Below, piece by piece: positions 5,337-20,293 of a stretch of 22,813 bases of DNA. Positions within the stretch are counted from its first letter, which is position 1. Each line of letters begins with the position of its first letter. The translations under genes were made by a program, and so were the position numbers. The notes beneath the pieces were generated by a model that was given only the letters and a program-made list of their open reading frames with translations, was not told where the DNA came from and did not search any database. This stretch comes from an uncultured Rubrobacteraceae bacterium (GTDB lineage: Bacteria > Actinomycetota > Rubrobacteria > Rubrobacterales > Rubrobacteraceae), in the NCBI GenBank assembly GCA_902806015.1, contig CADCUZ010000143.1, positions 1-22,813 of the forward strand. The letters are read 5' to 3'.

Positions 5337-7190
5337 CTAAGATACGTCGAGGGTGTGGGGTTCGCCCGGGCTTCGGGAGGTCTCCGCTAGCGGCAGGAGG
5401 ACGGAGAAGCTGCTGCCCGCGCCGGGCCGGCTCTCGACCCTGATCCTACCTCCGAGGTGGTCCATGATCTCGCGGGCAAGGGCGAGGCCGAGGCCGGTGC
5501 CGTCGGCCCGGGAGGAGCCTTCGGCCCGGTAGAAGCGGTCGAAGATGTGCGGGATCTCGCCCTCCGGGATGCCGCAGCCGCGGTCGGTGACGCCGACGAC
5601 GGCGTGCCCGTCTTCCCGCGAGAGCTTCAGGTCTACCGGGGAACCGTCCTCGGAGTACTTGATGGCGTTGTCCACCAGTATCGTGAGCGTCCGGTGGAGC
5701 TGGTTCGGATCCGCCTCGACGGGCGGTACGTTCTCCTCGACCCTGATGTTGAGCGTGCGCCCCGTGAAGCCGAACTCGCGGCGCAGGTCGTGGAGCAGGT
5801 CCTCCAGGTAAACCTCCTCGGCCCTGAAGGTGACGGCGTTCGCGTCCAGACGCGAGAGGTCGAGCAGGGTCTGGGCGAGGCCCTTCAGGCGCTCGGTTTG
5901 GGCTCGCATGTCGTTCAGGAAGTCGGCCCGGAGCCGCTCGTCCTCCTCGTCCTCAAGCATCTCCAGGTAGCCAGAGAGGGCGGCGATGGGGGTCTTGAGC
6001 TCGTGCGAGGCGTTGGCGATAAAGTCCGTCTTGGCGCGCTGGACCCGGCGTTCTTCGGTCACATCCCGCAGGATGGCGAGGGCGCCGTCCTCCAAAGGGG
6101 CGGCCCGCACCTCGATGATGCGGTCCCCGGCCTCGACCTCGGGTTCGGTGACGGGTCCTGAGTAGCGGGTCTTGGCGAGCACCTCCTGCAGCCGGGTGTG
6201 GAACTCGTGCGGGGTGGACTCCAGGAATTGCTTGGCCCGAGGGTTCAAGAAGACGGGTTCGAGGTCCCGGTCCACGCCGACGACCGCGTCCGTCATGCCG
6301 TCGAGGATGGCGTTGCCGCGCTCCTTCTCCTGCTCGATCTGGCCGAAGGCGTCCTTCATGGAGGCGGCCATCGCGTTGAACGACGCGGCCAGGGACCCGA
6401 GCTCGTCCCCGACGTGGGTGTTTATGCGCTCGTCGAAATTGCCGGCGGCCAGCCGCCCGGCGGCGACGTTCAGCCGATCCACCCGGCGCGAGATCATGAC
6501 GGCCGCGAAATACCCCGCAAAACCCGCGATCAGGAGCGCCAGGCCACCGGCGAGCAGGGCCAGCCCCTCTACCCTGTTCAGCGCCTGCTCGGCGTTCTCG
6601 ATGTCGCTCTCCGTGTAGAACCGGTTGAAGACGATCGCGGCGTTCTCTACCTCGCGGCCCTCGGCATCCTTCACGCCTCTTATAGGGACGGCGTAGGTGG
6701 CCTGCCGCTGGCCCTTGTGCAGGCCGCTCCGGACCGGCACGACATTCCACCTCGGCCTCCCGGCTTCTCCAGCCCCCACGGCGTTCCTCACAACCGCATC
6801 GATCCAGTCGACGAGGTCCTCGTCCCCTCGCACCCTCGCGCTGCGCTCGCCATCGACACGAACGATCCCCCACTGCAGGTTCCTCGTCTCCGCAAAGTCC
6901 TGCATGTCCCGCGTTGAAGGCCGGTAGTTGCTGCCGCGCATCTGCGCCTCCCACTGCTCGGCGACCTGCCGGAAGGTGGCGTCGCTCGCCCGGCTCAGGG
7001 AGGTCTCCAGGATGGGGCGCACGATGCCGTAGGCGGCGACCGCGGAGACGGAGGTGACGAGCACGAAAAGGGCGGTGAGCCAGACGCGGATGCTCAGGCG
7101 GAGCCTTAGCCCCTCTATCGCCCCCGGCGGGGGCAGCCTTCCGCCCGTGAGGCGGGGGGTTCGGCCGGGCTTCCCCTTACCGGAAAACAT
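5337..7190 (-). CDS. Two-component sensor histidine kinase (HAMP-PAS-HisKA-HATPase)
   Basis: A membrane sensor kinase of 617 residues from the ATG at 7190. A first helix at about 35-57 and a second at about 209-233 enclose an extracytoplasmic sensor domain of about 150 residues. Then come a HAMP linker (to about 285), a PAS domain (about 295-380), the dimerisation and phosphoacceptor domain with H396 in ASHELKTP, and a complete ATPase domain: N508 in LVDNAIKYS, DRGCGIP, FDRFYRA and GTGLGLAL. The layout is that of PhoR/WalK-type kinases. The signal is unknown. The gene overlaps the end of the response regulator. A GTG at 7199 is an alternative start, but the ATG has GGGGTG spaced correctly before it. 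Confidence 0.93.
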   Translation of the reverse strand: MFSGKGKPGRTPRLTGGRLPPPGAIEGLRLRLSIRVWLTALFVLVTSVSAVAAYGIVRPILETSLSRASDATFRQVAEQWEAQMRGSNYRPSTRDMQDFAETRNLQWGIVRVDGERSARVRGDEDLVDWIDAVVRNAVGAGEAGRPRWNVVPVRSGLHKGQRQATYAVPIRGVKDAEGREVENAAIVFNRFYTESDIENAEQALNRVEGLALLAGGLALLIAGFAGYFAAVMISRRVDRLNVAAGRLAAGNFDERINTHVGDELGSLAASFNAMAASMKDAFGQIEQEKERGNAILDGMTDAVVGVDRDLEPVFLNPRAKQFLESTPHEFHTRLQEVLAKTRYSGPVTEPEVEAGDRIIEVRAAPLEDGALAILRDVTEERRVQRAKTDFIANASHELKTPIAALSGYLEMLEDEEDERLRADFLNDMRAQTERLKGLAQTLLDLSRLDANAVTFRAEEVYLEDLLHDLRREFGFTGRTLNIRVEENVPPVEADPNQLHRTLTILVDNAIKYSEDGSPVDLKLSREDGHAVVGVTDRGCGIPEGEIPHIFDRFYRAEGSSRADGTGLGLALAREIMDHLGGRIRVESRPGAGSSFSVLLPLAETSRSPGEPHTLDVS

Positions 7191-7875
7191 ATCCGACACC
7201 CCGCGCGGTGTGGATAAACTCGGGGTTACGGGGGTCGCGTTCGATCTTCTCGCGGAGGTGGCGGATGTGGACGTCCACGGTCCGCTCGTCGCGGAACTCG
7301 TCGCCCCAGACCCTCCGCAGGAGCGCGCTGCGCGCGAACACGCGGCCGGGGCTGGAGGCCAGGGTCACCAAAAGCTCGAACTCCGTGTAGGTCAGGTCCA
7401 CATCGGCGCCGTCCACGGAGACCCGCCGGCTCGGCAGGTTGATGCGCAGCCTGTCGTAGGCAAGCTCGTCGGGGCGCTGGCCCGCGGGGACGGCCGCGCG
7501 GCGCATGATCGCACGCACCCGCGCCACCAGTTCCCTGACGGCGAACGGCTTGGTTACGTAGTCGTCGGCGCCGAGCTCCAGCCCGACGACCCGGTCTATC
7601 TCGTCGTCCTTGGCCGTCAGCATGATGACGGGCACCTCGCTCTGCGCGCGGATGCGGCGAATGACCTCCGTGCCGTCGAGCTTGGGGAGCATGATGTCCA
7701 GCACTATGAGGTGCGGCTCGTAGTTCTTGAAGGCCTCCAGGGCGGCCTCGCCGTCGCCGGCCACCCGAATCTGGAATCCCTCCCGCTCCAGGGCGTGCGT
7801 GAGCATCTTCTGGAGCGACGGCTCGTCGTCTACCAGGAGTATCCTGCGCGTAACGCCCTGTGAGTCCTGCACCAT
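7177..7875 (-). CDS. OmpR/PhoB-family response regulator
   Basis: A 232-residue transcription regulator. The receiver domain (about 10-125) has the acidic pair D16/D17, phosphoacceptor D60 in VLDIMLPKLDG, T87 and K109 in YVTKPF. The C-terminal winged-helix DNA-binding domain (about 135-230) has the typical LTYTEFELL and RTVDVHIRHLREKIE segments. It is the partner of the kinase that overlaps its 3' end. The ATG at 7875 has GAGG about 12 bases upstream, which is rather far. An extended -10 box upstream suggests that the pair has its own promoter separate from the nuclease gene. Confidence 0.95.
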   Translation of the reverse strand: MVQDSQGVTRRILLVDDEPSLQKMLTHALEREGFQIRVAGDGEAALEAFKNYEPHLIVLDIMLPKLDGTEVIRRIRAQSEVPVIMLTAKDDEIDRVVGLELGADDYVTKPFAVRELVARVRAIMRRAAVPAGQRPDELAYDRLRINLPSRRVSVDGADVDLTYTEFELLVTLASSPGRVFARSALLRRVWGDEFRDERTVDVHIRHLREKIERDPRNPEFIHTARGVGYVFR

Positions 7876-12389: not shown

Positions 12390-13199
12390 CTACCCTTGCG
12401 GCAGCAGCGCCATCGCCCGACCCGGTCCCCCGGAGGAGTCGGCTATTTTGACGGGCAGAAAGACGAAGTACGCCCCGCGCACCGGCACCTCCGAGAGGTT
12501 GGTCAACAACTCGACGTACCTCATGCCCCTGCCCAAACCCTCCTGGTGGACGGGCACTCCGTCGTGGGCGCTGCCGATGCTCGGGGCGTCGATGCCGATG
12601 GTCTTTACGCCCTTCTCGTGCAGGTAGCCTGCGGTCTCCGGCGAGGGGGCCGGCCAGCCGGGGTGCTTCTCCGTGACGAGCGAGCCGCTCAGGTACTTCT
12701 CGCCCTCCGCGCCCTCGACGTAGTATCGGTCCCAGTCGGTCCTGAACAGGACGACCTCGCCCTCCGCGAGCTCGCCGTGCTCTTCCTCGAAGGCGCCCAC
12801 GTGATCCGGCTCGATAAACGGGCTGACGCCGGGCCCGCCCTGCTCGGACAGATGGCTCACGTCCACGACCACGGCCGGTCCCATCAAATCTTCGAGTGGG
12901 ACCTTGTCGCCGGTCTGGGCGCCGAGGTCGCTTGCGAGCGGCAGGCCGGAGTCTGGGGGCGGTATGAAGTGGGTCGGGGCGTCGAAGTGGGTGCCGCAAT
13001 GCTCGTCTATGACGAGGAAGTTGGTCTGGTAGGGGGCGGCGCTCTTTGTCTTTCCGGTCGGCCCGTTAACCTCGGCGAACCAGTTCCAGTTGTGGTGGGC
13101 GAAGGTCATGTGCCCGGGCCAGGTGCCGGGCAGCCGCTCGGAGACGGTCACCGAGAGGTCAACGACCCTCGATGCGGAGAGCAGCGGGCCGAGATCCAA
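12390..13199 (-). CDS. Cyclase-family metallohydrolase (kynurenine formamidase-like)
   Basis: A 269-residue member of the cyclase family (PF04199), metal-dependent hydrolases including bacterial kynurenine formamidase KynB and other amidases. The metal-binding signature H67-C-G-T-H71-F-D73-A-P-T-H77-F is complete, and the C-terminal half carries GIDAPSIGSAHDG, normal for the fold. It starts with TTG at 13199 behind an AGGAGGAG ribosome binding site that overlaps the stop region of the LarA-like gene, so it is the last gene of the acid-sugar operon. The substrate is unknown. In this context opening of an acid-sugar lactone or hydrolysis of an amide is possible (inference). Nothing points to tryptophan catabolism. 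Confidence 0.88.
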   Translation of the reverse strand: MDLGPLLSASRVVDLSVTVSERLPGTWPGHMTFAHHNWNWFAEVNGPTGKTKSAAPYQTNFLVIDEHCGTHFDAPTHFIPPPDSGLPLASDLGAQTGDKVPLEDLMGPAVVVDVSHLSEQGGPGVSPFIEPDHVGAFEEEHGELAEGEVVLFRTDWDRYYVEGAEGEKYLSGSLVTEKHPGWPAPSPETAGYLHEKGVKTIGIDAPSIGSAHDGVPVHQEGLGRGMRYVELLTNLSEVPVRGAYFVFLPVKIADSSGGPGRAMALLPQG

Positions 13200-13210
13200 G
13201 GCTCCTCCTT

Positions 13211-14461
13211 CTAGAACCCTTCGAGGGACCCGTCGGCGGCGAAGCGGAGATCCTCGGGGCCGGAGACGACCTCGGCCTCGGAGTTCGCGAGCGCCTCCTT
13301 GACGAGGTTCTCCGAGACGTAGAGGTGCTCCAGGTGGAGGGTGTTCGGGATGCGCACGAAGCGGGTCTCCTCGGGCGGGACGCCCCAGTTGCAGCGGACG
13401 GCCGTTTGCAGGGCCTCCCTGTCTGTGGGGAGGACCATCGGGACCTTGGCGCGCTCGACGAAGGTGCTGGTGACGACGTTGGCGTTCATGGCGTTGCGAT
13501 CGATCTGCCCGACGAGCCGCTCAGTGGTGAGGTCGGCGAGGCCGACGCCCAGGGCGTTGCCGTGCGACTCCTCGCTCACGTCGCCGACTATCAGGTACTT
13601 GACGTTGGGCCTCTCGGGCTCCTCGACGCCAAGGATGCGGAAGCGCCCGATCACGTTCGTGTCCATCCCCGTCCCCGAGTAGTTCTTGCCCAGGGCATCC
13701 ACGTAAAGTATGTCTATGTCGGAGATGGGAAGGACTGGCATCATCCCCATGTACCCGCGCAAAAGCTCCCGCTCGCGGCGCGGGATCTCGCCGGTCGGGA
13801 TCGCCTCGATGGCCGCCGGTTCGTCGTAGGCGTTCTCCACGATGCCCAGGCCGAAGAGGACGTGCCCGGAGTCAAGCACCTCCTCGCCGACCTCGGCCAT
13901 AAAGTCCCGGATGCCCTCGACGCCGTAGCCGTGAAGGGCGAGGGCCTGGGCGTGCTTACCGAGGCCGATGGAGGCCATCTTCAACAGGCCGCTCTCGACC
14001 TCGGCGCGGAAGTCCGTGTGGGCCTTGATCCTGTTGACCACCACGACGCCGTCGGCCTCGGAGGCGATCTTGTCCATAAAGACCGGGATGCCGCGCCCGG
14101 TCTCCCCGACCTCGACGGTCTCCATAGACGAGCGGATAGGCGCCCCGCAAAACTCCTCCGTGACGCCCAGGGAGGCCAGGATCTCGACCTGCCCCTCGGC
14201 CGTCGCCCCGCCGTGGCTCCCCATCGCTGGCACTATGAAGGGCTCCGCCCCCATCTCCTTGAGCCCGTCGATCACGGCGCGCAGGACTTCGTCGATCCGG
14301 GCGATGCCGCGGCTACCCGCAGTGACCGCCACGCTCATCCCGGGCCTGACGGCGGAGGCTATCTCCTCCCTCCGAAGCTGCTCGCGCACCGTGCCCTCCA
14401 CGTCCCCCACGCGGGGGCGGGGGAAGGTCTGGCGGACCTTTACCACCTTCGGGAAGTCCAA
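13211..14461 (-). CDS. LarA-like nickel-pincer cofactor-dependent isomerase (DUF2088)
   Basis: A 416-residue homologue of lactate racemase LarA, the family that uses a nickel-pincer nucleotide to racemise or epimerise 2-hydroxy acids. Seen are the PAMGSHGGATAEGQ motif with H83, NRIKAHTDF with H148, ESGLLKM with K161, and LALHGYG with H177. By spacing these correspond to LarA residues H108 and H174 (acid/base), K184 (cofactor attachment) and H200 (nickel ligand); this mapping is mine, from pattern alone. It begins with TTG at 14461 behind GAGAGGAG, which overlaps the end of the pdxA2-like gene. Lying between the acid-sugar dehydrogenase and cyclase genes, it is a good candidate for a C2 epimerase of a four-carbon acid sugar (inference). 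The cofactor genes larB, larC and larE are not in the window. Confidence 0.85.
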   Translation of the reverse strand: MDFPKVVKVRQTFPRPRVGDVEGTVREQLRREEIASAVRPGMSVAVTAGSRGIARIDEVLRAVIDGLKEMGAEPFIVPAMGSHGGATAEGQVEILASLGVTEEFCGAPIRSSMETVEVGETGRGIPVFMDKIASEADGVVVVNRIKAHTDFRAEVESGLLKMASIGLGKHAQALALHGYGVEGIRDFMAEVGEEVLDSGHVLFGLGIVENAYDEPAAIEAIPTGEIPRRERELLRGYMGMMPVLPISDIDILYVDALGKNYSGTGMDTNVIGRFRILGVEEPERPNVKYLIVGDVSEESHGNALGVGLADLTTERLVGQIDRNAMNANVVTSTFVERAKVPMVLPTDREALQTAVRCNWGVPPEETRFVRIPNTLHLEHLYVSENLVKEALANSEAEVVSGPEDLRFAADGSLEGF

Positions 14462-14462
14462 G

Positions 14463-15461
14463 TTAGCTCCTCTCTTCGGCGCCGGCTAGGGTGCGGGCGA
14501 GGTCCAGGGCGGCCTCCAGGCTCGCGTGGTCGGCCTTGCCGGTGCCGGCGATGTCGAAGGCCGTGCCGTGGTCCACGCTGGTGCGGAAGAACGGCAGCCC
14601 GACGGTTACGTTGACGCCCGTGTCGAAGCCCATGAGCTTTATGGGGATGTGGCCCTGGTCGTGGTACTGGACGACTACCACGTCGAAGTGCCCCTGGCGG
14701 GCGCGCATCATCACCGTGTCCGGCGCCCACGGGCCGCTGACGTCCATGCCTTCGTCCAGGGCCGCCTTGACGGCGGGCCTGATCTTCTCCAGGTCCTCCT
14801 TCCCGAAGAGGCCGTTCTCCCCGGCGTGCGGGTTGAGGCCGGCCACGGCCACGCGGGGGCTCCCGACGCCGAGCTTCTTTAGGGACTCGTGGGCCAGGCG
14901 TATGACGGCGAGCTCGCGCTCGGGCTGCGCCCTGTCTATGGCCTCTTTGAGGGAGACGTGGGTCGAGACGTGGATGACCTTCAGCTCGTCGGTGACGAGC
15001 ATCATGGCGTAGTTCCTGGTGCCGGTGAGGTCGGCCAGGATCTCGGTGTGCCCCGGGTACCCGTGCCCCGCGAGGTGCATCGCCTCCTTGTTGAGCGGCG
15101 CGGTCGCTATCGCCGCGACGCGGCCCGAGCTCGCGAGCCCCGTCGCCCGCTCGACGTAGCGGAAGGCCGCGTCGCCCGCCCTCGCGTCGAGCTCCCCGAA
15201 CGGCAGGTCCTCCGGTAGCGCTCCGACCTGCAGCACGTCCGCCGCTCCGGGCCCGAAGGCGGCGTCTTCTGGCTCCTCGATCTCGTTTATCTTCAGCGGC
15301 AAGGATAGCAGCCGCGCGGCGCGGCGCAGCATCCCGGCGTCTCCGACTATCAGGGCGCGGTTCCTCTGGTGGAAGCGCGTGTCGGCGAAGGTGCGGGCTA
15401 CGATCTCGGGTCCGATCCCGGACGGGTCCCCCATCGTCACGGCTACGAGCGGCGGCGTCAC
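14463..15461 (-). CDS. pdxA2: PdxA-family 4-phosphate dehydrogenase, probably PdxA2 (acid-sugar catabolism)
   Basis: A 332-residue NAD-dependent dehydrogenase. The family marks are complete: TMGDPSGIGPEI at residues 9-20, ATAPLNKEAMHLAGHGYPGH with the first metal histidine, NPHAGENGLFGKED with the second, and YHDQGHIPIK with the third. PdxA makes the pyridoxal phosphate precursor, but PdxA2 homologues beside DUF1537 kinases oxidise and decarboxylate D-threonate 4-phosphate or D-erythronate 4-phosphate to dihydroxyacetone phosphate. The location right after such a kinase favours the second role. Its GTG start overlaps the kinase TGA in a GTGA arrangement, so the two are translationally coupled. 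Longer open frame upstream is only the antisense-like shadow of the kinase gene. Confidence 0.92.
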   Translation of the reverse strand: MTPPLVAVTMGDPSGIGPEIVARTFADTRFHQRNRALIVGDAGMLRRAARLLSLPLKINEIEEPEDAAFGPGAADVLQVGALPEDLPFGELDARAGDAAFRYVERATGLASSGRVAAIATAPLNKEAMHLAGHGYPGHTEILADLTGTRNYAMMLVTDELKVIHVSTHVSLKEAIDRAQPERELAVIRLAHESLKKLGVGSPRVAVAGLNPHAGENGLFGKEDLEKIRPAVKAALDEGMDVSGPWAPDTVMMRARQGHFDVVVVQYHDQGHIPIKLMGFDTGVNVTVGLPFFRTSVDHGTAFDIAGTGKADHASLEAALDLARTLAGAEERS

Positions 15462-16654
15462 GTCGTTGGGTCTCCCTTCAAGAGCGATTGCACGGCCTCC
15501 ACGAGCGTTTTCGGCCCCCCGAAGCCGCCGGCCTTCGTGACGACGGTGTAGGGCTTCGGGCCGATAAGGGTCCCGGCCGGCACGCCCGCCTCGACCTCCC
15601 CCGCGAGCCGGATGCCCGAGGCCCCGAGCCGCCTGGAGACCGCGACGGCCGTCGACCCCCCGGTCAGCACCAACCCGTCGAACAACCCCTCTTCGGCGAG
15701 CGCGGCGGCGGCCCCGGCGAGGGACCTCATGACCTGCCCCCTCGCCCCCGAAGAGGCCCGGCCCGAGGAATGCACGACAGCGCAAACCCCGCCGGAGAGC
15801 GCCTCCCGCGCCGCGGCCACGACCTCCCTCACGGTGCCGGCCGATCCCGGCCCGACCGGGATCGCCACCTCCCCGTGCTCCTCGACGAGCCTGCCGAGCT
15901 GGCCCCGCGACACGCCGTTTAGGGAGCCCACGACGACGAGCACGGAGCGGGCCTTGGGCAAGGCCACCCGCGCCTCCGCGGGGCGGGGCCCCGGGTGGAC
16001 GGCGCCGAGCGCCAGCGCGAGCCCCGCCGAGCCGGCCCATAGAACCCGCCCGGGGTCCGGCACGGCCCGTACCAGGGCCTCCAGGTCCGCCTCGCGCTCC
16101 GCGTCCGCGACGGTCCACTCGTTTGCCTGCAGGGCGCGGCGCACGTTTTCGGGGTCTTCGAGGTCCCCCGCGCTCAACGTGCCGACGGAGGACGACCACC
16201 CGCCGAGCAGCGTGGGGAGGTGACCCTCCCGGACGGGGGTCCGCGGGTCGTTCTTCAACTCGGTCTCGTGGACGGGGGTGCCGTGGACGAGTTGGGTGCC
16301 GCCGGCGGTGGTCCGTCCGGCAGCCGGGAAGGCGGGGGCGACGACGGCGCTCCGGCGGCGGGTGGACTCCAGGGCGGCGGAGAGCTCCTCGGCGACGGAG
16401 CCGCGCAGGGTGGAGTCGAACTTCTTGTACACGAGGCGGGCGGCGCGGGCGCTCCGTCCGGCCTCCGAGACGTACCGGGCGGCGAGGCCGGGGCGCAGCG
16501 TGCGGGAATCCGTGTCGAAGACGGCGGCGTCGAGGTCTTCGGGGGGCACCGGCTCCCCGCGAAAAACGACGGCGGTCCGGTAGCCGGCGCGGGCGAACTG
16601 GACGCCGGTGTCGGCGGCCCCCGTAAGGTCGTCGGCGATCACGGCGGTCAGCAC
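15458..16654 (-). CDS. Four-carbon acid sugar kinase (DUF1537, OtnK/DtnK type)
   Basis: A 398-residue kinase that phosphorylates the 4-hydroxyl of threonate or erythronate using ATP. N-terminal sugar-binding motifs are IADDLTGAADTGVQFA, YKKFDSTLRGS and VVAPAFPAAGRTT. The C-terminal nucleotide-binding domain has WAGSAGLA, VVVGSLNGVSRGQ, LTGGSTAVAV and YTVVTKAGGFG. All are present and the length is normal, so it should be active. Its PdxA2 partner overlaps it by four bases; this pairing is the one described for D-threonate and D-erythronate catabolism (Zhang et al. 2016). It begins with GTG at 16654, with only a weak ribosome binding site, 97 bases after the SDR gene. Whether the substrate is D-threonate or D-erythronate cannot be read from the sequence. 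Confidence 0.93.
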   Translation of the reverse strand: MLTAVIADDLTGAADTGVQFARAGYRTAVVFRGEPVPPEDLDAAVFDTDSRTLRPGLAARYVSEAGRSARAARLVYKKFDSTLRGSVAEELSAALESTRRRSAVVAPAFPAAGRTTAGGTQLVHGTPVHETELKNDPRTPVREGHLPTLLGGWSSSVGTLSAGDLEDPENVRRALQANEWTVADAEREADLEALVRAVPDPGRVLWAGSAGLALALGAVHPGPRPAEARVALPKARSVLVVVGSLNGVSRGQLGRLVEEHGEVAIPVGPGSAGTVREVVAAAREALSGGVCAVVHSSGRASSGARGQVMRSLAGAAAALAEEGLFDGLVLTGGSTAVAVSRRLGASGIRLAGEVEAGVPAGTLIGPKPYTVVTKAGGFGGPKTLVEAVQSLLKGDPTT

Positions 16655-16750
16655 CTCGGCCCGCCGTCTTCGGCGGCTTTCGGCATTTCACGACGCTCTA
16701 AACGAACTGGACCCAGAAGGGCGGGATGTTGAGCAATCGGACGTGACATC

Positions 16751-17518
16751 TTATTGGGCAAGGTAGCCCCCGTCCACCGGCAGGATCGCGCCGGTCACGA
16801 ACGAGGCCTCGTCGGAGGCGAGAAACAGGATCGCGCTCGCCACCTCGGAGGGCTCCCCGAGCCTCCCGATGGGGTGCGCCTCCTTCATGGGCGCCTTGTA
16901 CTCCTCCGGCAGCTGCGCGACGGCCTCGGTCGTTATGGTGCCGGGCGCCACGGCGTTCACGCGGATGCCGCGGGCGGCCCACTCGACGGCGAGGTGCTTG
17001 GTGATCCCGGACGCCACGAACTTCGCCGGCCCGTAGGTGGACTGCTCGGCCTGCCCGGCGAGCCCGCTTATGGACGAGAGGCACACTATGGAGCCGCCCG
17101 GGTTCTCCTGCTTGAGCATGGCCTCGACGGCGAACTTGCAGGTAAGGAACATCCCCCGCCCGTCCACGGCCATGACGTGGTCCCAGTCCTCTGGCGTGGC
17201 GTCAACGATGTTGTTCAGGGGGATGACCCCGGCGTTCGCCACGAGCACGTCCAACCGCCCGAAAGACTCGACCGCCGCGCCGACCATCCGCCTCGCGTCC
17301 TCCACGGCCGCCACGTCCCCGACGACCGCGACGACCTCGGCCCCCTCCCCTCCCAGCCGACCTTCTAGGCCTTTCAGATCGGCCTCCTCCACGTCGTTGA
17401 TGACGAGCCTCGCCCCTTCCCGGGCGAAGAGCTCGGCGGTCGCCCGGCCGATGCCCTTCGCGGCCCCCGTCACGACCGCGGACTTGCCGCCCAGCCTGTT
17501 TAACCCCGTCTGTGCCAC
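16751..17518 (-). CDS. SDR-family NAD(P)-dependent oxidoreductase
   Basis: A classical short-chain dehydrogenase of 255 residues. The cofactor site T17-GAAKGIG24 and the NAG motif (95-97) are present, and the catalytic S148/S149, Y162 and K166 (YGPAK) are intact. The Asn of the catalytic tetrad is replaced by Asp (AVDGRG, about 119), a substitution seen in some SDRs. The N-terminal Rossmann fold has an acidic residue after the second strand (INDVE), which favours NAD over NADP. It starts with GTG at 17518 behind AGGAGGAG. As the first enzyme gene after the DeoR regulator, it probably oxidises a polyol, aldehyde or acid-sugar intermediate feeding the kinase (inference). Its exact substrate is unknown. 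Confidence 0.92.
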   Translation of the reverse strand: MAQTGLNRLGGKSAVVTGAAKGIGRATAELFAREGARLVINDVEEADLKGLEGRLGGEGAEVVAVVGDVAAVEDARRMVGAAVESFGRLDVLVANAGVIPLNNIVDATPEDWDHVMAVDGRGMFLTCKFAVEAMLKQENPGGSIVCLSSISGLAGQAEQSTYGPAKFVASGITKHLAVEWAARGIRVNAVAPGTITTEAVAQLPEEYKAPMKEAHPIGRLGEPSEVASAILFLASDEASFVTGAILPVDGGYLAQ

Positions 17519-17553
17519 GCTCTCCTCCTGTCCCTACGCATTTTGGGACTTTT

Positions 17554-18332
17554 TCACGCCAGATGCACCCTCACCCCGCAGGAGCAGGCGGCCTCCAGGG
17601 CCTCGGGCGGCGCCGCATCGTCCGTGATCAGGTCGTCGAGCCGGTCCATGCGGGCGACCTCGAAAAAGGACGGCGGGCGGAACTTGCTGTGGTCGGCGAG
17701 CAGAACAACGCGGTGGGCGGCCCGCATCATGGCCCGCTTGGCCTCGACGACCTCCAGGCTCGACGCGCTCAGGACGTCGCCGGTCACGGCGTGGATGCCC
17801 ACGAAGGCGACATCGACGTGCAGGCCGTTCAGGAAGGCTTGCGTGTAGGAGCCGAGCAGGGTGAAAGAACCGTCCCGTATCTCGCCGCCGGGCACCACCA
17901 CAGACGCGCCGGCGCCTCGGCCAGCACGGAGGCCACCCCGACGTCGTTGGTGACCGCCACCCCCAGGTTCCGCCGGTCCAGCGCCTCGGCCGCGGCGAGC
18001 ACCGTCGAGGAGGAGTCGAAGACGACGCTCTGCCCCGCGCCAAGCAACGTCGCGGCGTAGTCCCCGATCCTCTTTTTCTCTTCGGGGTTGTGCCGGCGCC
18101 GGTCCTCGAACCGGTGCTCGAAGGCCGTGCCCTCGGCCGTCACGGCGCCGCCGTGGGACCGCCGCACCGCCCCCTCCCGGTCCAGCTCGTCCAGGTCCCT
18201 GCGCACCGTCGAGCCCGAGACGCCCAGGGCGTCCGCGATCTCCGCGATCGACGCCCCACCCCGCCGCCCCAACAAAGCCCGGATCTCCGTGCGCCGCTGC
18301 GCGGGTATCTTGCGCTCCGGGCCCCTTCCCAT
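17554..18332 (-). pseudogene. DeoR-family transcription regulator interrupted by one frameshift
   Basis: The product would be about 259 residues, normal for a DeoR repressor of sugar catabolism. The first frame, from the ATG at 18332, gives the N-terminal helix-turn-helix (IAEIADALGVSGSTVRRDL) and half of the sensor domain (DSSSTVLAAAEAL). It then runs off-frame near 17909-17912 and stops at 17829. The rest of the sensor domain, from SVVVPGGEIRDGSFTLLG to ADHSKFRPPSF and the stop at 17554, lies in another frame. Restoring a single G (CCGGCGCG to CCGGGCGCG) yields a continuous family-like protein. It may be a sequencing error, a recent mutation that would derepress the operon, or, less likely, programmed frameshifting. 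It precedes the SDR gene by 35 bases and is divergent from the transporter gene. Confidence 0.85.
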
Positions 18333-18565: not shown

Positions 18566-20293
18566 ATGGGTAGAGGGAGAGATTCGGACCCGAACAGGCC
18601 CGTAGAACCCGATGAGGCACGGGCGCACGGCAACGACCCGGACGCCGTCGAGATGCACGACGGCGGAGAGCGGGGGTCCGCTGAGGGCGGACCGCGCAGG
18701 GTCGGCGAGGTACGCAATGAGCGGGAAGGAACGGGCGCCCACGGAAGGACCGAGGGCGACGAGCACCTAACGGACCGCGACGCCGAGGCAAACCGGGCGA
18801 CGTCTGACGCCGGCCGGGACGCAGGAGCGGCGGGCGGGGCGGACGCCCAGGAAGGCTGGAACGTCCCGTCCGGGGTCCTGCCACCCATAGGATCCCGGGA
18901 TCTGCCGGAGCCGTTGCCGCTGGGCAAGCTTGTGGGGGCGAGCGTGGTCATCCTCGCCACGGCGCTCGGGTCGGGCGAGTTCATAATCTGGCCGTACATC
19001 ACCACGCAGATAGGGATAGCGTTCCTGTGGCTCGCTGCGGTCGGGTTCGGGATGCAGTTCATCCTGAACATGGAGATCGAGCGCTACACCCTGGCCACCG
19101 GCGAGACGGCGGTCACGGGCTTCACCCGCTTTTGGAAGCCTTGGGGGATAATCTTTGTGTTGGGCGCCGTCTTACCGAACGCCTTCCCCGGGTGGGCCAC
19201 CGGCGGGGCCACGATGATCAATTACATGGGCCTCGTCGGCGAGGGGGCCATCCCCGTAATCGCCTCCATAGTCCTCGTCGCCACGGCGCTGGCGCTGACC
19301 CTGTCGCCGGTGGTCTACCAGGCCCTGGAGAAGATCCAGATGGTGCTGGTCGGCATCATCATGCTCTTCCTGATAGTCGGCGTATTCGTCGCCACCGAGC
19401 TAGGGGCCTGGGCGAGCATCGTCACGCGGGCCCCAGGGAGCATCCCTGGACTCCCCGGGGCCATCGCTGCGCTCGGGGCCGCGACGTTCCTGGGCGCCAT
19501 AGCCTTCGCAGGGGCGGGCGGGGCCAACAACCTCACCCAGAGCAACTACATCCGCGACAAGGGCCTTGGGATGGGCGGGCTTATGCCCAAGGTCGTCTCC
19601 CCGATAACCGGCGAGGAGCAGGCGGCCCCGTCCCTCGGGTACACCTTCCCCGTGAACGAGGAGAACATGCGCCGCTGGAGGGGCTGGTGGAGGGTGGCCA
19701 ACCAGGAGCACCTCATCACCTTCCTGGGCCTCGGCCTTTTCACGCTAATCATGCTCTCGGTTCTCGTCTGGTCGACCGTAGGCGGCGGAATTGGCGGCGT
19801 TGAGGCGGACCTCACGTTTATCGACAGAGAGGCCGAGGTTCTCGGCAACCAGATAGGGGGCTGGTTCAGGCTCTTCTTCCTCTTTGCCGGCATGGTGGTC
19901 CTCTTCTCGACCAGCATAGGCATCATGGACTACGTCAGCAGGCTCAGCGCCTCGGAGCTAAAGGTTAGCTTCTTCTCCAACAGCCAAACGATAACCGAGA
20001 GCCGCGTCTACTTCGCGTTCGTGTGGATCATCGCCGTCGCGGGCTCGCTGATCCTCCTGGCCGGCCTCGATGCCCCGCTCGTGCTGCTGATCATCTCCGC
20101 CTCGGGCGGCGGGGTCGTGATGTTCTTCTACTCGGGGATGCTCATCCTGCTGAACACCCGGGTCCTCCCCGATCCCATCAAGCTCAAGGGCTGGCGGCTG
20201 GTGCTGATGTGGATAACCTTCGCCATCTTCGCCGTCCTCTCGCTTTACCTGGTCTACTACCAGATCGCGTCCAACTTCTTTGGAGTAGAGTAG
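18566..20293 (+). CDS. Nramp-fold transporter lacking the canonical metal-binding motifs
   Basis: A membrane transporter of 575 residues. Residues 1-100 are a hydrophilic, probably disordered cytoplasmic tail. About 11-12 helices follow from residue 120, in the order typical of Nramp (LeuT fold). The TM1 unwound region that reads DPGN in metal-transporting Nramps is here G135-S-G-E-F, and the TM6 MPH motif is replaced by AGAGGANNLTQSNY (about 315-328). Mn/Fe transport is therefore unlikely, although automatic annotation would call it a divalent metal transporter. It is divergent from the DeoR/acid-sugar operon, which suggests organic-acid uptake (inference). A GGAGGG lies about nine bases before the ATG at 18566. 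A weak TAGGAT -10 at 18449-18454 is the only promoter hint. Confidence 0.82.
   Translation: MGRGRDSDPNRPVEPDEARAHGNDPDAVEMHDGGERGSAEGGPRRVGEVRNEREGTGAHGRTEGDEHLTDRDAEANRATSDAGRDAGAAGGADAQEGWNVPSGVLPPIGSRDLPEPLPLGKLVGASVVILATALGSGEFIIWPYITTQIGIAFLWLAAVGFGMQFILNMEIERYTLATGETAVTGFTRFWKPWGIIFVLGAVLPNAFPGWATGGATMINYMGLVGEGAIPVIASIVLVATALALTLSPVVYQALEKIQMVLVGIIMLFLIVGVFVATELGAWASIVTRAPGSIPGLPGAIAALGAATFLGAIAFAGAGGANNLTQSNYIRDKGLGMGGLMPKVVSPITGEEQAAPSLGYTFPVNEENMRRWRGWWRVANQEHLITFLGLGLFTLIMLSVLVWSTVGGGIGGVEADLTFIDREAEVLGNQIGGWFRLFFLFAGMVVLFSTSIGIMDYVSRLSASELKVSFFSNSQTITESRVYFAFVWIIAVAGSLILLAGLDAPLVLLIISASGGGVVMFFYSGMLILLNTRVLPDPIKLKGWRLVLMWITFAIFAVLSLYLVYYQIASNFFGVE

Follow-up and report, generated by a model that had tools for sequence, protein, structure and literature searches.

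A conserved Rubrobacterales operon joining a LarA-like nickel-pincer isomerase to a DUF1537 kinase and a PdxA family dehydrogenase, with a predicted role in four-carbon sugar acid catabolism

A minus-strand operon in a Rubrobacteraceae contig

The operon studied here lies on a contig from an uncultured Rubrobacteraceae bacterium (GenBank assembly GCA_902806015.1, contig CADCUZ010000143.1), and the window is the whole analysed stretch of 22,813 nucleotides. On the minus strand, between positions 12390 and 18332, this Rubrobacteraceae-like contig carries a run of genes for a DeoR family regulator, an SDR family oxidoreductase, a DUF1537 kinase, a PdxA family dehydrogenase, a LarA-like protein and a cyclase-family hydrolase (Table 1). 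An initial annotation, made from the DNA letters and their open reading frames, had proposed these six genes as one operon, and open reading frames together with profile matches place all six where it had put them. The GTGA overlap that it had described was confirmed between the kinase and PdxA genes, at 15458-15461, and the Shine-Dalgarno site that it had located within a preceding gene is GAGAGGAG, which lies inside pdxA ahead of the LarA start codon, a TTG one base past the PdxA stop. Named Rubrobacteraceae and Rubrobacter proteins share 93-94% identity with the LarA protein encoded in the window. The LarA, kinase and PdxA genes are referred to below as the trio, and loci and genomes of relatives are designated by L and G numbers.

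Two parts of the run appear to be damaged in this contig. The regulator is present where the initial annotation had placed it but is not a single reading frame, as its N-terminal part (17829-18332) and C-terminal part (17554-17877) lie in different frames, while the spacing of the two parts is divisible by three in the four relatives checked (L002, L003, L006 and L008); the frameshift could reflect either a pseudogene or an assembly error. In addition, because a 48-base scrap of a permease gene sits where L001, L004 and L056 keep RbsB/A/C-type genes (substrate-binding protein, ATPase and permease) in the interval between the SDR and kinase genes, the window contig seems to have lost a sugar ATP-binding cassette (ABC) transporter there. 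For both features, a biological cause and an assembly fault cannot be told apart from one contig.

Table 1. Genes and gene remnants of the minus-strand run in the window
Feature	Position	Strand	Evidence
Cyclase-family hydrolase, accessory	12390..13199	-	PF04199 113 bits
LarA-like nickel-pincer (NPN) isomerase, group 22, 416 aa, predicted C2 epimerase	13211..14461	-	PF09861; NF052515 542 bits
PdxA family dehydrogenase, PdxA2-like (predicted 4-phospho-acid 3-dehydrogenase/decarboxylase)	14463..15461	-	PF04166 359 bits
DUF1537 four-carbon acid sugar kinase, nearest to D-threonate kinase	15458..16654	-	PF07005 + PF17042
Scrap of sugar ABC permease gene, 48 bases	16688..16735	-	blastn 85-90% identity to permease genes of L001, L004, L056
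SDR family oxidoreductase, accessory	16751..17518	-	PF13561, PF00106
DeoR family regulator, frameshifted	17554..18332	-	HTH_DeoR + DeoRC matches split over two frames

The LarA homologue and its partners

The LarA homologue scores well over the cut-off (400 bits) of the NCBIfam model NF052515, 'nickel pincer cofactor-dependent isomerase, group 22', a group that carries no assigned substrate in NCBIfam. Its predicted structural model matches solved LarA structures in a fold search, which places it within the LarA fold. No LarA in the PDB was found by sequence, either with a single-query phmmer search or with a 12-row profile, and at this level of comparison group-22 LarA is too distant from the PDB proteins for detection by these two methods. 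Five residues, H83, H148, K161, H177 and R51, are invariant in alignment A2 and correspond to two catalytic histidines, the cofactor lysine, the nickel-ligand histidine and the phosphate arginine, where the pairing with H108, H174, K184, H200 and R75, respectively, was made by motif and spacing rather than by residue-level superposition. Binding of the nickel-pincer nucleotide (NPN) and isomerase activity are predictions from sequence and model. The initial annotation had also looked to the genes for making this cofactor, and these are present in most relatives: among Rubrobacterales genomes, larB was over the cut-off in 35 of 39, larE in 36 of 39 and larC in all nine tested.

Membership of the kinase in the DUF1537 family is supported by matches to PF07005 (187 bits) and PF17042 (72 bits), both over the gathering cut-off. 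Its solved relatives are PDB 4xfr and 4xfm, and its score on the OxoTetrKin model (3-oxo-tetronate kinase) is 114 bits. The best solved relative of the window PdxA is PDB 6e85, a D-threonate 4-phosphate dehydrogenase.

Linkage of the trio in Rubrobacterales and haloarchaea

Of 396 Actinomycetota genomes searched, 45 contain group 22, and in 40 of these it exceeds the curated cut-off. Neighbourhoods were searched by tblastn with 31 query proteins, leaving out the fragments G140:C2, G323:C305 and G303:C441, and other phyla were sampled via plasmids, with neighbourhoods drawn from 17 of the 114 plasmid records that have a group-22 match. The resulting tree covered 69 distinct group-22 proteins, of which 61 came from genomes, seven from the plasmid loci opened first and one from the window; in it, 23 proteins including that of the window, all at least 63% identical to it, form a clade on one side of a branch with SH-aLRT support of 100. 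The trio is linked in all 22 uncut members of this clade, with gaps from LarA of at most 4.3 kb to the kinase and at most 5.5 kb to PdxA; the remaining member, L007, is cut by a contig end and was left out. Two extra trio loci occur on short contigs, L119 (another contig of the L007 genome) and L118 (G372). Because some clade loci are near-copies of one another (L008, L060, L063), these linkage counts are not independent.

Outside the clade, none of 46 group-22 genes has both a kinase and a PdxA gene nearby, although only 27 of these loci have at least 5 kb of DNA on both sides and further neighbours of the rest may be unseen; neither partner was found beside the group-22 gene in L125 and L126, on contigs of about 4 kb. 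The PdxA gene nearest to a non-clade group-22 gene is 8.6 kb away, and in L050, L056, L069 and L095 it is part of an adjacent trio operon. In these four loci a second group-22 paralogue is separated by 11 to 15 kb from the LarA gene of the trio, and therefore the same genomes hold two group-22 proteins, only one of which keeps the kinase and PdxA. The second paralogue, about 45% identical, stands beside lutABC (L056:17342, L095:13081, L050:4087 and others), and lutA or lutB is found within 6 kb of 14 of the 46 non-clade loci; it is possible that the lutABC-linked paralogue is a racemase for lactate or another hydroxy acid that feeds LutABC. A longer, second type of DUF1537 gene, which occurs in several Rubrobacterales genomes, lies 4-6 kb from the Lut-associated LarA paralogue, with no PdxA, in L075 (near 6288-7556) and L097 (near 2081-2802). 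Group 22 is also carried by plasmids of Roseobacters, Bacillota and haloarchaea. On the Roseobacter plasmids L044, L047 and L049 the LarA gene adjoins genes for altronate dehydratase, an arabinonate-type dehydratase, DHDPS and LarC, and the protein is probably a different aldonate epimerase of the same group.

Five contiguous trios were found on haloarchaeal plasmids, with LarA from another lineage than the Rubrobacterales clade. In Haladaptatus halobius and H. salinisoli the genes run LarA-kinase-cupin-PdxA and sugar ABC genes come next; Halarchaeum has LarA-kinase-PdxA-LUD genes and Natronococcus CG52 has kinase-PdxA-LarA, while the trio of Natronococcus AD-5 is known from match coordinates only. 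The small cupin gene that separates kinase and PdxA in Haladaptatus lies at L104:9564-9914 and L106:8303-8653. Nine haloarchaeal records match the Haladaptatus kinase at E 1e-30, and each of them matches PdxA and group 22 as well; among the nine are YSMS36, where the group-22 gene is 4 kb from kinase-PdxA, Halomarina BND7, where the three genes are far apart on one plasmid, and QDMS2 and DYSN1, which are known from matches alone. The conserved neighbourhood that the initial annotation had suggested searching for is therefore kept across Rubrobacteraceae relatives and is present in haloarchaea as well.

In a 75-row tree, the haloarchaeal trio LarA proteins branch within a set of haloarchaeal group-22 proteins that mostly occur without the trio, and an approximately unbiased (AU) test on a quick tree rejected a single clade of both trio sets (p-AU 1.02e-10). 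The simplest reading of these trees is that LarA was recruited on two separate occasions; the kinase and PdxA genes could nevertheless have been transferred between the bacterial and archaeal groups. Two residues after the catalytic H148, D150 is aspartate in all trio rows (22/22 and 4/4) and in 7 of 49 other rows. Because the haloarchaeal non-trio rows also have aspartate (four) or asparagine (three) at this position (n=7), lineage may account for the sharing of D150 by both trio lineages.

The surroundings of the trio vary. In R. taiwanensis (L006) the order is DeoR-LarA-GntP-KdgT-like-kinase-PdxA and in L008 it is DeoR-MFS-kinase-PdxA-LarA; others have kinase-PdxA-LarA, and elsewhere there are ABC genes or no transporter. 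An SDR gene accompanies the trio in some relatives, and L060 and L063 have a cyclase gene about 3 kb from the trio and no SDR. Because tblastn found no match to either gene near the trio within the fetched DNA of L006, L043 and L050, SDR and cyclase, to which the initial annotation had given the supply of a precursor, look like accessories outside the core; a lactonase role for the PF04199 cyclase would be a guess. LarA, kinase and PdxA form the stable core, accompanied by a regulator and a transporter. An alpha/beta hydrolase gene is inserted between PdxA and LarA in L002, L004, L009 (6611-7498), L057, L058 and L119; its best NCBIfam match, under the cut-off, is haloalkane dehalogenase, and its product may hydrolyse a lactone or an ester.

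Beyond the operon, at 18566-20293, the window encodes a divergent 'Nramp_1' (NF037982) protein that carries GSGEF at what we take to be the place of the canonical Nramp motif DPGN. Because of this replacement, the protein may carry something other than metal. The 'Nramp_1' gene lies between the trio operon and lutABC in L056 and L095.

A predicted route, its rivals and known systems

D-threonate and D-erythronate differ at C2, and the final steps of the pathways described for DUF1537 kinases are phosphorylation followed by oxidation and decarboxylation to dihydroxyacetone phosphate. We consider it somewhat more probable than not that the operon encodes a catabolic route for four-carbon sugar acids in which LarA interconverts C2 epimers, most likely D-erythronate and D-threonate. 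The substrates and step order that we infer are as follows. LarB, LarE and LarC would make the NPN cofactor with which the LarA homologue is loaded, and LarA would take the C2 hydride from a 2,3,4-trihydroxybutanoate and return it on the opposite face (D-erythronate <-> D-threonate). The DUF1537 kinase would phosphorylate one epimer at O4, after which oxidation of C3 by the PdxA2-like enzyme, with loss of CO2, would give dihydroxyacetone phosphate. A single kinase/dehydrogenase pair would in this way drain both epimers without the OtnI/OtnC route, and the system would be completed by the DeoR regulator together with a transporter that differs between loci (sugar ABC, GntP, KdgT-like or MFS). 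OtnC and OtnI were each over the cut-off in none of the 39 Rubrobacterales genomes and in one of 14 control genomes. According to PMC11770544, other LarA homologues epimerise 4-deoxy-threonate and 4-deoxy-erythronate at C2. The C2 epimerase reading of the initial annotation is partly supported, in that the predicted fold and the catalytic residues are those of LarA, whereas the substrate is suggested by context and the partner enzymes score under the D-threonate cut-offs. The chances are about even for the broader proposal that group-22 LarA proteins include nickel-dependent D-erythronate/D-threonate 2-epimerases. Their recruitment into a kinase/PdxA2 operon would then have happened two or more times, in Rubrobacterales and in haloarchaea, and would have given four-carbon sugar acid catabolism a nickel-dependent branch that replaces the OtnI/OtnC route.

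Several observations weigh against this assignment. By sequence the window kinase and PdxA are nearest to D-threonate families, yet the kinase reaches 243 bits on NF047819 (D-threonate kinase; equivalog cut-off 450), kinases of trios elsewhere scoring 254 (R. taiwanensis) and 261 and 213 (two haloarchaea), and PdxA reaches 388 bits on NF002891 (D-threonate 4-phosphate dehydrogenase; equivalog cut-off 583). Two haloarchaeal trio PdxA proteins that were scanned score higher on general PdxA models. In two of the 46 non-clade loci, L075 and L097, a DUF1537 gene without PdxA lies within 6 kb, at 3.6 and 5.6 kb; these genes were seen in a laxer search than the tblastn search at E 1e-10 with window proteins. 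Among trio genomes, G001 has no larB and G004 no larE over the cut-off, both being fragmented assemblies. In 32 of the 39 Rubrobacterales genomes there are OtnI-like proteins, which score 254-282 bits against a cut-off of 325, and 28 genomes have weaker OtnC-like proteins. Two trio loci are also near lut/LUD genes, a hint of other 2-hydroxy acids, and no assay of a group-22 enzyme was found in the literature covered. Finally, a table in PMC13185595 lists the kinases for D-threonate and D-erythronate under one KEGG entry and the two phospho-acid dehydrogenases under another; an epimerase would therefore not be strictly needed, and its part would be to broaden or balance the route, not to form its sole entry.

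The low D-threonate scores would also be expected if LarA were a C2 epimerase for another acid (a C5/C6 aldonate, 2,4-dihydroxybutyrate, glycerate or a branched tetronate) and the kinase and PdxA had shifted likewise. This possibility, which we regard as unlikely though deserving attention, is in keeping with the presence of altronate or arabinonate dehydratases, IlvD and DHDPS beside non-trio group-22 genes and of a UxaA-family gene about 8 kb from LarA in the Rubrobacter indicoceani trio. However, both partner enzymes in the window have D-threonate families as their nearest named ones, and the 6 kb around the clade loci contain no UxaA or IlvD match. A LarA that acts after the kinase, on 4-phospho-D-erythronate <-> 4-phospho-D-threonate, would fit the trio context just as well, but such a reaction is improbable, as the LarA-family substrates named in the relevant parts of PMC7583248 and PMC11770544 are free acids.

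That the three genes are neighbours by descent alone, without a common pathway, could be argued from the origin of the bacterial trio loci in one order, several of them near-copies. It is made very improbable by the persistence of the trio through rearranged gene orders and by its occurrence with a second LarA lineage in archaea. Least probable of all is a kinase/PdxA pair devoted to vitamin B6 synthesis or 4-hydroxythreonine salvage, with LarA unrelated. The window PdxA does exceed the general pdxA cut-off (366 vs 290 bits), and a DUF1537 kinase that recycles 4-hydroxythreonine is cited in PMC10971088. However, PdxJ, the pathway partner of PdxA, was found in none of the 39 Rubrobacterales genomes while it was matched in 4 of 14 control genomes, and PdxS, of the other vitamin B6 pathway, is present in 29 of the 39. 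The PdxJ route to vitamin B6 therefore fails to explain the PdxA gene, and a role of the window PdxA through it is disfavoured.

The conserved operon is real, and a four-carbon sugar acid epimerase is a well-supported function prediction for an enzyme group without an assigned substrate. That the trio occurs with one LarA lineage in bacteria and a distinct one in archaea is strong contextual evidence for a class of enzymes with substrates that are hard to guess, and the operon offers a concrete and cheap assay for group 22. If the prediction is true, a nickel-dependent step is added to acid-sugar catabolism, and both C2 epimers become usable with one kinase.

Within the LarA superfamily, which includes LarA and GntE (PMC7583248, PMC11770544), group 22 is a branch without a named substrate. 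Its number is not among the 13 homologues tabled as tested in 2020 in PMC7583248, and the nine homologues from 2024 are assigned in PMC11770544 to lactate, hydrophobic-acid, malate, gluconate and 2-hydroxyglutarate groups. As the initial annotation had supposed, a pathway of LarA with DUF1537 kinase and PdxA2 was not found described in the open-access literature searched, which did not extend to the gene-context Table S1 of the 2020 LarA paper, where the link may be listed; the enzyme families themselves are known. The D-gluconate 2-epimerase GntE (LarAH19/20) is likewise an NPN enzyme acting on C2 of a sugar acid and was, according to PMC7583248, first proposed from gene context. It belongs to a different LarA group, and after the second catalytic histidine the window protein has T149 and D150 where GntE usually has glutamate and valine.

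The closest known system is the D-threonate/D-erythronate route, which Zhang et al. reportedly described in 2016 and in which the DUF1537 kinase DtnK/DenK acts with PdxA2. Kinase/PdxA pairs without LarA also occur in the opened stretches of Gemmobacter and Alicyclobacillus. The window operon resembles this route in its adjacent and overlapping kinase and PdxA genes, whose best named matches are D-threonate families, and differs from it in scores that stay short of the curated cut-offs and in the addition of an NPN isomerase.

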